Of a stretch of DNA of 64,000 nucleotides, positions 2,440 to 5,257 are shown in pieces. The DNA is from Sedimentibacter sp. MB35-C1. GTDB taxonomy: Bacteria; Bacillota; Clostridia; Tissierellales; Sedimentibacteraceae. Under the pieces are notes generated by a model. It did no database searches. It was not told the origin of the DNA and saw nothing but the letters and a program-made list of their open reading frames with translations. A program made the translations under genes and the position numbers. The DNA is taken from positions 1,922,001 through 1,986,000 of the forward strand of contig NZ_CP133188.1 in assembly GCF_030913635.1 (NCBI RefSeq), read 5' to 3'. How positions within the stretch are numbered: position 1 is the first letter of the stretch; every line of letters begins with the position of its first letter.

Positions 2440-2898
2440 ATGTTTGATTTAGATAGATGAGTGGGATATATAGCAGATAATTCAAGTAAAATTATCTGTG
2501 ATGCCTTTAGTGAGAGGGTGAAAGATTTAGGTGTAACCAGAGTACAGTGGATTGCTCTGTATTATTTAGGAAAAGATGAATTTATAAGTCAAAAGGAATT
2601 GGCTGAAAGAATGAGTGTAAAAGAATCATCTGTAGCTAGACTTTTAGATCGTATGGAAAGAGACGGATTAGTGGAAAGAGTCAGAAGCGAAGAAGATAAA
2701 AGAGTTATAAATTTAAGACTTACCGAAAAAGGAAGGCAGCGTAGAGCTAAATTGGTTCCGGAAGGTGAGAAATTTGAAAGATTGTTGCATAAAAACATAT
2801 CGGATGAGGATATGAAGATATTTACAATGGTTTTATCAAAGATGGTTAATAATATATTGGAAGAGAATATGGATGAAAAATGTACACGTGAATTATAA
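2440..2898 (+). CDS. MarR-family regulator with in-frame TGA at codon 7 (candidate selenoprotein)
   Basis: Winged-helix regulator; the HTH/wing region (VTRVQWIALYYLG ... KELAERMSVKESSVARLLDRM ... RLTEKG) covers about residues 30-100 and is intact. The only good ribosome binding site, AAGGAGG at 2426-2432, is 7 bases before ATG 2440. From there the frame reads MFDLDR, then TGA (2458-2460), then VGYIADNSSK and the rest of a normal 152-residue MarR protein. The alternative start GTG 2461 directly follows the TGA and has no ribosome binding site. Right after the TGA lies a hairpin at a distance usual for a bacterial SECIS. OhrR-type MarR proteins carry a peroxide-sensing cysteine near the N-terminus, so a selenocysteine sensor is plausible. 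Alternatives are a nonsense mutation or re-initiation at GTG 2461. The downstream AhpD-like gene with a palindromic operator is its likely target. Confidence 0.7.
2458..2503 (+). promoter_or_regulatory. In-frame TGA and SECIS-like hairpin
   Basis: TGA at 2458-2460 is followed by CAGATAATT (2474-2482), loop CAAGTAA (2483-2489) and AATTATCTG (2490-2498), a perfect 9-bp stem that extends outward through G-U, one mismatch, U-A, A-U and U-G to about 2469/2503. The loop begins 23 bases after the TGA, inside the range reported for bacterial SECIS elements. The loop contains GU, but the G is the fourth loop base, not one of the first two as in the usual bacterial consensus, so the match is partial. 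Confidence 0.5.
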
Positions 2899-3048: not shown

Positions 3049-3102
3049 TTGACAAAAATCATTTTACTTGCTATACTAATAGTTAGCATAGCAAGTAAAA
3101 TG
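3049..3102 (+). promoter_or_regulatory. Promoter and palindromic operator of the AhpD-like gene
   Basis: TTGACA 3049-3054 and TATACT 3072-3077 are spaced 17 bases, a near-consensus promoter. A perfect 15-base inverted repeat, CATTTTACTTGCTAT (3060-3074) and ATAGCAAGTAAAATG (3088-3102), spans the spacer, the -10 box and the start region. The inner AGTTAGC/GCAAGTA half-sites resemble MarR-family operators. A bound repressor would block this promoter; the upstream MarR protein is the obvious candidate. Confidence 0.75.
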
Positions 3103-3118
3103 ATTGGGAGGATAAGAA

Positions 3119-3472
3119 ATGGCTAAAGATGTAAGACAATTATTACAGGATTTTACAGGAGGAATGGAAGAGCTGTCAAATACCAGCGGAGCTCAGATTG
3201 ATGCATTTATGAATTTATTGGGAGCGGCTTACGAGCCTGATGCATTGGATTTAAAAACAAAAGAATTAATAAGCGTAGGAGTTGCTGTTTACAATCGTTG
3301 TGAATATTGCATTGTTTTCCACACTTACAATGCTCTGCAGGCAGGTGCCACAAGAAAAGAAATTATAGAAGCAGCGATGGTTTCTGTAGCATTTGGAGGA
3401 GGCCCTTCAATGGCATATAGTTCAACAGTATTAAAAGATTCTCTTGATGAATTTGAAAAGGATTTTAAATAG
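3119..3472 (+). CDS. AhpD-like / carboxymuconolactone decarboxylase family protein
   Basis: 117-residue alkylhydroperoxidase AhpD-core protein. The catalytic pattern known from mycobacterial AhpD is present: Glu49 (KTKEL), then Cys61-x-x-Cys64 (CEYC) with His68 four residues on. In that family the CxxC disulfide is reduced by a lipoyl group and passes electrons to a peroxidase or reduces peroxide itself. ATG 3119 follows GGGAGGATAAGAA. It is expressed from a strong promoter under a 30-base palindromic operator. Only 66 bases without a terminator separate it from the lipoyl-carrying lipoamide dehydrogenase, so the two are probably co-transcribed and work together. The substrate is not known. 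Confidence 0.85.
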   Translation: MAKDVRQLLQDFTGGMEELSNTSGAQIDAFMNLLGAAYEPDALDLKTKELISVGVAVYNRCEYCIVFHTYNALQAGATRKEIIEAAMVSVAFGGGPSMAYSSTVLKDSLDEFEKDFK

Positions 3473-3538: not shown

Positions 3539-5257
3539 GTGATATTTGATATAAAACTGGAAAAATTATCAGGTAGTGACAGATCCGGAGTGATAGGCAG
3601 CATATATAAGTCAAATGGAGACCCTGTAAAAGCAGGAGATGAAGTCCTCGATGTAGAAGTTAAAAAAAAGAACATTACCATTACTTCTGATGTGGAAGGA
3701 AAGATTGTAGAAATAAAAGCAAAACAAGGAGATAAGGTTTCAATAGGTGATGTTCTATATACTGTTGAAGGTGAAAAAGTCGAAAGTAAAGGGCAGACTG
3801 ATAAGAAGCAGGGTTTTAATTATATGGCTAATTTTTTAAAACCGCAAAAAGAAACAATTGACGGAGACATAGTCATAATCGGCGGCGGTCCGGGAGGATA
3901 TGTTGCTGCAATTGAAGGTGCTAAGGAAGGCGCTAATGTAATATTGATTGAAAAAGAAAGCCTGGGAGGAACCTGTCTCAATAGAGGATGCATACCAACA
4001 AAAGCTTTGGTGAGGTCTTCTGAGGTTTACAATATAGTTAAAAACTCTGAAGGATATGGAATTTTTAATTCTTCTCCAAGTTACGACTTTTCCAAAATAG
4101 TAGATAGAAAGAATGAAGTTGTAAAGGAATTGGTTGGAGGAATAGATTATCTGATGGCCAAAAATAATGTTACTGTATTCAGAGGAGACGGTCAAATAGT
4201 AAATAAGAATGTGGTATTTGTAAAGGAAAGGAACAAAGAAATTACAATTAATACAAAAAACATCATAATAGCCACCGGCTCAGATACATTTGTCCCTCCA
4301 ATAAAAGGAGTGGAGTCAAAAAATGTACTGACTAGTACTGACATGTTGAATTTAAGCCAACTGCCTGAGAAAATAATTATTGTAGGTGGCGGTGTAATAG
4401 GTATGGAGTTTGCATTTATTTGCAATGCTTTAGATGTAGATGTTAGTGTGGTAGAGTTTGCTGATGATATTTTAGTTTCATTGGATGAAGATATAAGAGA
4501 TGAAATCAGAGAGATAGCTGTAGAAAAAGGAATAAAGGTATATATCGGTTCAAAGGTTGAAGAAATTATAGATACCGAAGAAGGCAAGTCAATCGTATTA
4601 TTCAATAAAGAAGGTAAAAATGGTTATATAACAGGTGACAAAGTTCTTATGGCAGTTGGAAGAAAGCCATTTTATGGTAATATAAATTTGGAAGAGCTGG
4701 GAATTGAAGTTGGCAGAAATAAAAGAGGAATAAAAGTTAACAGTAAGATGCAAACTACGGCAGAGAATATTTACGCTGTTGGAGATGTTACTAATGTGAT
4801 ACAATTGGCTCACGTTGCTTCTCATCAGGGTTTGGTTGCTATTGAGAACATAATGGGCAAAGATACAGAAACTGATTATTCTGCTATACCAAGCGTAATA
4901 TTTACGAGCCCTGAAATTGCTTCTGTCGGCATTAGAGAAAAAGATGCAAGAGAGCAAGGTATACCCGTAAGCATTGGAAAGTTCCCATTTGGAGCTAACG
5001 GCAAGGCTCTGACTCAGGGAGACAGAAAGGGTTTTGTAAAAATAATAGCCCAGGAAGATACAGGCGTAATATTGGGTGGATCTATAATAGGTCCTCACGC
5101 TTCAGATCTTATACATGAAGTTGCAGTTGCAATAAAAAACAAATCAACCGCTGAACATGTAATTAATACTGTTCATGCTCATCCTACAACTGCCGAATCT
5201 GTACATGAGGCTATGTTAGCAGCTACAGCAAAAGGGGCAATACATTTGGCTGAGTAA
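3539..5257 (+). CDS. lpdA: Dihydrolipoamide dehydrogenase with N-terminal lipoyl domain
   Basis: Flavoprotein disulfide reductase, 572 aa, about 110 residues longer than a plain Lpd because of an N-terminal biotinyl/lipoyl domain (about residues 1-80; lysines at 42-44 in VEVKKKN sit where the lipoylated lysine is expected). Then come the FAD motif GGGPGGYVAA (116-125), the redox disulfide Cys146/Cys151 (GGTCLNRGC), the second nucleotide site VGGGVIGMEF, and the C-terminal HAHPTTAE with catalytic His548 and Glu553. GTG 3539 is the start, preceded by GGGAGGA. No E1, E2 or GcvH genes are near; the partner in view is the AhpD-like CxxC protein upstream. NADH to FAD to disulfide to lipoyl to AhpD is the inferred route. 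Confidence 0.93.
   Translation: MIFDIKLEKLSGSDRSGVIGSIYKSNGDPVKAGDEVLDVEVKKKNITITSDVEGKIVEIKAKQGDKVSIGDVLYTVEGEKVESKGQTDKKQGFNYMANFLKPQKETIDGDIVIIGGGPGGYVAAIEGAKEGANVILIEKESLGGTCLNRGCIPTKALVRSSEVYNIVKNSEGYGIFNSSPSYDFSKIVDRKNEVVKELVGGIDYLMAKNNVTVFRGDGQIVNKNVVFVKERNKEITINTKNIIIATGSDTFVPPIKGVESKNVLTSTDMLNLSQLPEKIIIVGGGVIGMEFAFICNALDVDVSVVEFADDILVSLDEDIRDEIREIAVEKGIKVYIGSKVEEIIDTEEGKSIVLFNKEGKNGYITGDKVLMAVGRKPFYGNINLEELGIEVGRNKRGIKVNSKMQTTAENIYAVGDVTNVIQLAHVASHQGLVAIENIMGKDTETDYSAIPSVIFTSPEIASVGIREKDAREQGIPVSIGKFPFGANGKALTQGDRKGFVKIIAQEDTGVILGGSIIGPHASDLIHEVAVAIKNKSTAEHVINTVHAHPTTAESVHEAMLAATAKGAIHLAE

Follow-up and report, generated by a model that had tools for sequence, protein, structure and literature searches.

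The AhpC/AhpD/DlaT/Lpd proteins of Mycobacterium tuberculosis form an AhpD-lipoyl-Lpd peroxidase system. Peroxides are sensed by the 1-Cys MarR-type regulators OhrR, SarZ and MgrA, and OhrR of C. violaceum has been described as sensing organic hydroperoxide through Cys21 (PMC3469484). Most of the selenoprotein families listed in Table 1 of a 2026 review (PMC13188914; 119 families or subfamilies by the review's own count) are enzymes, transporters or redox proteins, or else have no assigned role. The table includes an FmdB-type 'putative regulatory protein', and we saw in it no MarR protein or other winged-helix DNA-binding regulator. A term look-up found 'MarR' neither in the main text of that review nor in the main texts of a 2022 review (PMC9312934) and of the deep-Sep paper (PMC12013277). 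Literature searches for MarR, OhrR, transcription factors or helix-turn-helix proteins in connection with selenocysteine (Sec) or selenoproteins gave, among the matches listed, no title or abstract opening that describes a protein of this kind, subscription papers and preprints lying outside their scope. We found no earlier description of a MarR-type regulator with a predicted Sec where its close relatives have Cys.

Results

A MarR-family gene with an in-frame TGA at codon 7

The analysed window is a 64,000-nucleotide stretch of the single-contig, 3.62 Mb genome of Sedimentibacter sp. MB35-C1 (NZ_CP133188.1, positions 1,922,001 to 1,986,000, forward strand); unless a locus is named, positions are those of the window, and all window features lie on its plus strand. 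The MarR-family gene occupies 2440-2898. Direct reading bore out the preliminary description, which had assigned the ribosome binding site AAGGAGG (2426-2432, 7 nt upstream) to ATG 2440 and had placed a TGA at codon 7, followed by a complete MarR frame. Six sense codons (MFDLDR) precede TGA 2458-2460, and the frame continues with VGYIADNSS and stays intact to the TAA at 2898, which would give a 152-residue selenoprotein with Sec at residue 7. The mechanical list of open reading frames places the gene start after the TGA, as a 145-residue frame open from GTG 2461. A gene finder that starts at the codon following the TGA drops the presumed reactive residue, so further members of the group may be hidden. 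TGA terminates 6 of the 59 mechanical frames in the window, and a different genetic code was therefore set aside.

The protein matched the Pfam family MarR_2 with 60.6 bits (cut-off 27; E 1.6e-16). Its AlphaFold model (pLDDT 92.4) places residue 7 directly before a helix spanning residues 8-28 and matches solved MarR proteins of the PDB; in the Foldseek results the OhrR-DNA complex 1z9c ranked 33rd (TM 0.78 by query). The search listed 24 NCBIfam models, that of OhrR included, and all of them stayed below their cut-offs.

Close relatives carry Cys or TGA at the same column

Relatives were collected by protein and alignment searches of overlapping genome sets, with 27 genomes from the family, 391 from the class, 22 from the order of genome G390, 398 from the phylum and 10 from the order of genome G551. 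The class and phylum searches scored at most 10 candidates per genome, so the counts of relatives are lower bounds. A scan of genome contigs added a Lutispora locus (L009), which agrees with L152/L160 over the printed stretch and was counted once with them; L157 and L159 duplicate L130 and L132. Among the resulting 28 close sequences, window included, the column of the TGA holds TGT or TGC in 23 and TGA in five (Cys in 23 and TGA in four of the other 27), never TAA or TAG. The preliminary description had proposed asking whether homologues hold Cys or Sec at this place or all start past it; the close relatives start before the site, which lies within the motif F-x-L-x-x-(C/U), with Y replacing F in L135.

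The five TGA forms are spread over three families. Besides the window gene, they were found in the same genus (L092), twice in one genus of another order (L132 and L158) and in another class of the same phylum (L173). Within the order of the L173 genome, the search of 10 genomes found no member beyond L173 itself. A protein tree built without the site required at least four changes between Cys and TGA; several of its deep branches are unresolved and L173 forms a long branch. Two of the TGA genes have a further peculiarity. L132 contains a second in-frame stop, TAA at L132:1720-1722, on a contig that breaks off within the gene; the sister gene L158 is intact, and the second stop reflects either a broken gene or a read error. 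In the MarR gene of G551 (L183:4354-4794, minus strand) TGA occurs in two roles, at the Cys column and as the stop codon, which offers a built-in contrast for a read-through reporter. A MarR match with TGA in genome G018 was rejected, the TGA being that gene's own end.

Beyond the close set, 101 loci were aligned by ungapped extension, namely the 79 others of the contig scan (best 80 of 148) and 22 weaker family matches (L097-L118). An alignment was obtained for 97 of them and reached the N-terminus in 57, where the column holds Ser in 46, Cys in one (L017), other residues in 10 and a stop in none. Fifteen weaker matches of the class and phylum searches (L143-L151, L153-L156, L174 and L175) were left out of the 28; read by eye, the aligned place holds Ser in L143, L144, L174 and L175, Asp in L153, Tyr in L154 and Cys in L156, and the rest gave no alignment there. 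Cys or TGA at this place marks the window clade, since the more distant MarR relatives mostly carry Ser. Judged from these alignments, a reactive residue in the clade seems to correspond to an unreactive one in its kin.

Selenocysteine machinery is encoded near the window

The preliminary description had suggested a search for selA, selB, selC and selD. SelA, SelB, SelD and a tRNA-Sec gene (anticodon TCA) are all encoded in the same genome, about 71 to 81 kb past the window start. SelD itself carries an in-frame TGA, read by eye as MSIDKVRLTQMTKASG-TGA-AAKIGPE, and there matches UxxK, which Table 1 of PMC13188914 lists as the Sec motif of SelD. The selD gene lies at L129:7295-8347 (G000:C1 about 1993295-1994347), and its mechanical frame starts too late, at GTG 7379. 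A Pfam GRDB search of the genome gave six matches, four of them spanning nearly the full profile; one GrdB has an in-frame TGA, read by eye as TST-TGA-GTCTRCGA (L161, minus strand, TGA at 1500-1498). The presence of GrdB suggests an anaerobic amino-acid fermenter. SelA, the only gene sought in the four other TGA genomes, was present in all five TGA genomes and in 14 of the 22 Cys-carrier genomes tested, with no match in eight, one of which is only 83% complete. The presence of SelA does not separate TGA carriers from Cys carriers.

A hairpin follows the TGA codon

A candidate SECIS element was predicted at 2463-2506. The preliminary description had reported a perfect 9-bp stem with its loop 23 bases past the TGA and without a G in the first two loop bases, and both features were found on reading. 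The inner stem (2473-2482/2490-2499) comprises nine perfect Watson-Crick pairs and one G-U pair; the loop is CAAGUAA (2483-2489), its first base being the 23rd past the TGA. The stem had been thought extendable to about 14 pairs, and it does extend, the predicted fold having 16 pairs with the lower pairs GGG 2463-2465/CCU 2504-2506 and UAU 2467-2469/AUG 2501-2503 (-11.1 kcal/mol, z -2.16; 5 of 200 shuffles equally stable). Perfect stems of at least 9 bp at a SECIS-like spacing, a criterion chosen after this stem had been seen, were rare, following 23 of the 14,125 codon positions that were scanned in 36 of the 59 mechanical frames of the window. By folding energy alone the hairpin was unremarkable, with 390 of 4,697 sampled stretches folding equally well. 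The loop does not conform to the bSECISearch consensus, for which the preliminary description gave a G in the first two loop bases as the rule. A G in this position is also missing from the predicted loops of three other TGA genes and is present in L158, and the GrdB hairpin of the same genome has a GGC loop.

A stem-loop after the TGA was likewise found in the other TGA genes. For each of the 28 genes, the 17 codons following the site were compared with 1000 synonymous recodings. The hairpins of L092 (z -4.95), L132 (z -4.73) and L158 (z -4.53) were matched in stability by none of the 1000 recodings and that of L173 (z -3.21) by three. The test was thus significant for every TGA gene (z -3.2 to -4.95) except that of the window (z -1.43, p 0.086, not significant at 0.05). 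Among the 23 Cys forms z ranged from -2.07 to +1.13, two of them being nominally below 0.05 (L095, p 0.031; L130, p 0.040). As judged by recoding, the hairpin is under synonymous constraint in the four other UGA forms. The longest perfect stem did not distinguish these four genes (3-4 bp) from the Cys genes (3-6 bp).

In the clade with the motif MFF-[ND]-L-[ND]-K-(C/U)-VGHITENA, TGA and Cys genes encode an identical peptide just past the site, and the Glu codon within the stem is GAG in all three TGA genes and GAA, a stem-breaking synonymous change, in all five Cys genes, these counts coming from related genes and not from independent draws. In most Cys genes of this clade the hairpin persists in weakened form (z +0.14 to -2.07); in L094-L096 and L130 this reads like the decay of a SECIS element after a change from Sec to Cys. 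The five TGA-gene hairpins have a common topology and no single pairing register. A covariation count gave no support; the common structure on which it was made had been drawn by hand and was misregistered, and the five TGA sequences, three of them nearly identical, are too few.

A recurring operon with a palindrome over its promoter

Downstream of the MarR gene, a promoter-like site was identified by eye at 3049-3077 (TTGACA 3049-3054, 17 nt, TATACT 3072-3077). A perfect inverted repeat with 18-bp arms and a 13-nt spacer (3057-3105) spans its -10 box and is the putative operator. It is followed by the two putative target genes, one encoding a carboxymuconolactone decarboxylase/AhpD-like protein (3119-3472) and the other a dihydrolipoyl dehydrogenase (DLDH; 3539-5257) with an N-terminal biotin/lipoyl-like domain recognised in domain searches. 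The AhpD-like protein contains E-x11-C-x2-C-x3-H, which we take to be the AhpD active site.

In the fetched flanks, mostly of 1.5 kb, an AhpD-like gene was present at 17 of the 28 close loci and both genes at 14 of them. Neither gene was found in the flanks of L009 (1.9 kb downstream), L137-L140 and L142; L091 and L133 had the DLDH gene only, L141 and L172 had it on the other side, and the L132 contig ends. In G551 the AhpD-like gene is present and no DLDH gene adjoins it. Sixteen loci were inspected by eye for the palindrome. A core-like palindrome, with changes, precedes the AhpD-like gene in L090, L167, L168, L170, L171 and L173; the others contain TTGCTATACT-like pieces, except L134, which has none. 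The core of the window repeat, TTGCTAT-N13-ATAGCAA (3068-3094), has its only exact match in the genome in the window itself. A genome-wide search for the operator allowing up to two mismatches gave 77 matches per strand, one of them exact, versus 33 for the reversed pattern, and no wider regulon is claimed, because the sole exact match is the window's own. The MarR protein is probably a local repressor of the AhpD-like operon, a reading based on the recurring palindrome over the promoter, which is the usual logic of MarR operons.

Discussion

The sequences display an exchange of UGA and Cys codons at one site, a synonymously constrained hairpin in the four other UGA forms, the machinery for Sec, a recurring operon and a recurring promoter palindrome. 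From these we infer how the locus might work, from Sec insertion and repression to redox release and the inducer. SelA, SelB, SelD and tRNA-Sec would insert Sec at UGA 2458-2460, directed by the hairpin past the codon, and residue 7 of the repressor would thereby become a selenol. As a dimer, the repressor would bind the palindrome that overlies the AhpD-like/lipoyl-DLDH promoter. Peroxide or another oxidant would oxidise the N-terminal selenol, or the thiol in the Cys forms, whereupon the protein would leave the DNA and the operon would be switched on. The operon products may then reduce the oxidant with NADH via the lipoyl group and the CxxC pair. The refuting conditions named in the preliminary description, as far as they were checked, came out in favour of its Sec interpretation. 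We are confident of a Sec reading of the UGA and consider the explanation as a whole very likely. That the switch responds to an oxidant, which is argued by analogy, is reasonably likely.

Two other explanations dispense with Sec. Translation could end at the UGA after a six-codon leader peptide and restart at the adjoining GTG 2461, yielding a MarR protein that lacks the first seven residues. UGA and GUG adjoin in the window gene, L092, L132 and L158, and a frame of 145 residues is indeed open from this GTG. The codon after the TGA is, however, CTA in L173, where the first downstream ATG, GTG or TTG is a TTG 11 codons further on. The 23 close relatives with Cys read through the site within the common F-x-L-x-x-C motif, and the ribosome binding site of the window gene serves ATG 2440. 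Restarting would also leave the synonymous constraint on the hairpin and the exchange of Cys and TGA unexplained, and we regard it as very unlikely. Alternatively, the gene could be a pseudogene broken by a nonsense codon, or the TGA could be a sequencing error, and the additional in-frame TAA of L132 fits such a reading. Against it, the same codon recurs in five genomes from three families, four of these genes have an otherwise intact frame, including L158, the sister of L132, and the column of the 28 close sequences is restricted to Cys codons and TGA. Hairpins accompany the TGA forms, and the window genome is a single contig. We give this explanation hardly any credence.

A further alternative accepts Sec insertion and changes the signal, so that sulfane sulfur, selenide, an electrophile or a metal, in place of peroxide, would react with the selenol. 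According to a 2024 review (PMC11211675), MarR-family proteins such as MexR, OhrR and MgrA are responsive both to sulfane sulfur and to reactive oxygen species, and GrdB hints at the anaerobic life of an amino-acid fermenter. The neighbouring AhpD-like protein with its E-x11-C-x2-C-x3-H motif, often accompanied by the lipoyl-DLDH gene, nevertheless fits peroxide reduction best, and a signal other than peroxide appears fairly unlikely to us.

If the proposed switch is correct, its Sec would lie at the likely sensing site of a DNA-binding repressor, and selenium would take part in gene regulation directly. In a family of selenoprotein transcription factors of this sort, selenium might even have two roles, one as the reactive atom of the switch and the other as a supply gate, and a single gene would then signal oxidant as well as selenium status. 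Under selenium shortage, translation would end at codon 7, the repressor would be missing and the AhpD-like operon would be switched on; the repeated exchange of Sec and Cys would then represent evolution shifting the sensor between selenium-gated and selenium-free forms. This extension is tentative and somewhat unlikely. The natural Sec/Cys pairs with the same flanking peptide make it possible to ask what selenium adds to a thiol switch in rate, selectivity or resistance to over-oxidation.

The locus shares with known bacterial selenoproteins that have Cys homologues (AhpD-like proteins, Prx, GrdB and SelD) the in-frame UGA, the Cys in relatives and the hairpin, as well as SelA, SelB, SelD and tRNA-Sec in the genome. 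Its putative target operon resembles the AhpD-lipoyl-Lpd system of M. tuberculosis in combining a CxxC AhpD-like protein, a lipoyl-like domain and a dihydrolipoyl dehydrogenase. It differs in having the lipoyl-like domain fused to the dehydrogenase and a Cys/Sec MarR gene upstream of the other genes. With OhrR, SarZ and MgrA the protein has in common the MarR fold, the location of the residue at issue at the N-terminal end of helix 1 and a promoter palindrome ahead of a peroxide-linked gene, whereas TGA in five members sets the window clade apart from them. The preliminary description had proposed OhrR-type sensing. The likeness holds for the logic of the switch; the protein is not an OhrR, as judged from the position of its Cys/Sec, its model score and its neighbours. 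Aligned with one OhrR-like sequence (L102), the Cys/Sec stands two residues before the OhrR Cys, and the OhrR model NF052638 scored 50.9 against a cut-off of 200 bits; because of this offset, and since no NCBIfam cut-off was reached, the protein was not filed as an OhrR. The adjoining genes encode an AhpD-like protein and often a lipoyl-DLDH, in place of ohr. Redox sensing is argued by analogy, as the residue lies outside the OhrR column and Ser is usual in distant relatives, and by that analogy the protein may work like an OhrR-type switch.
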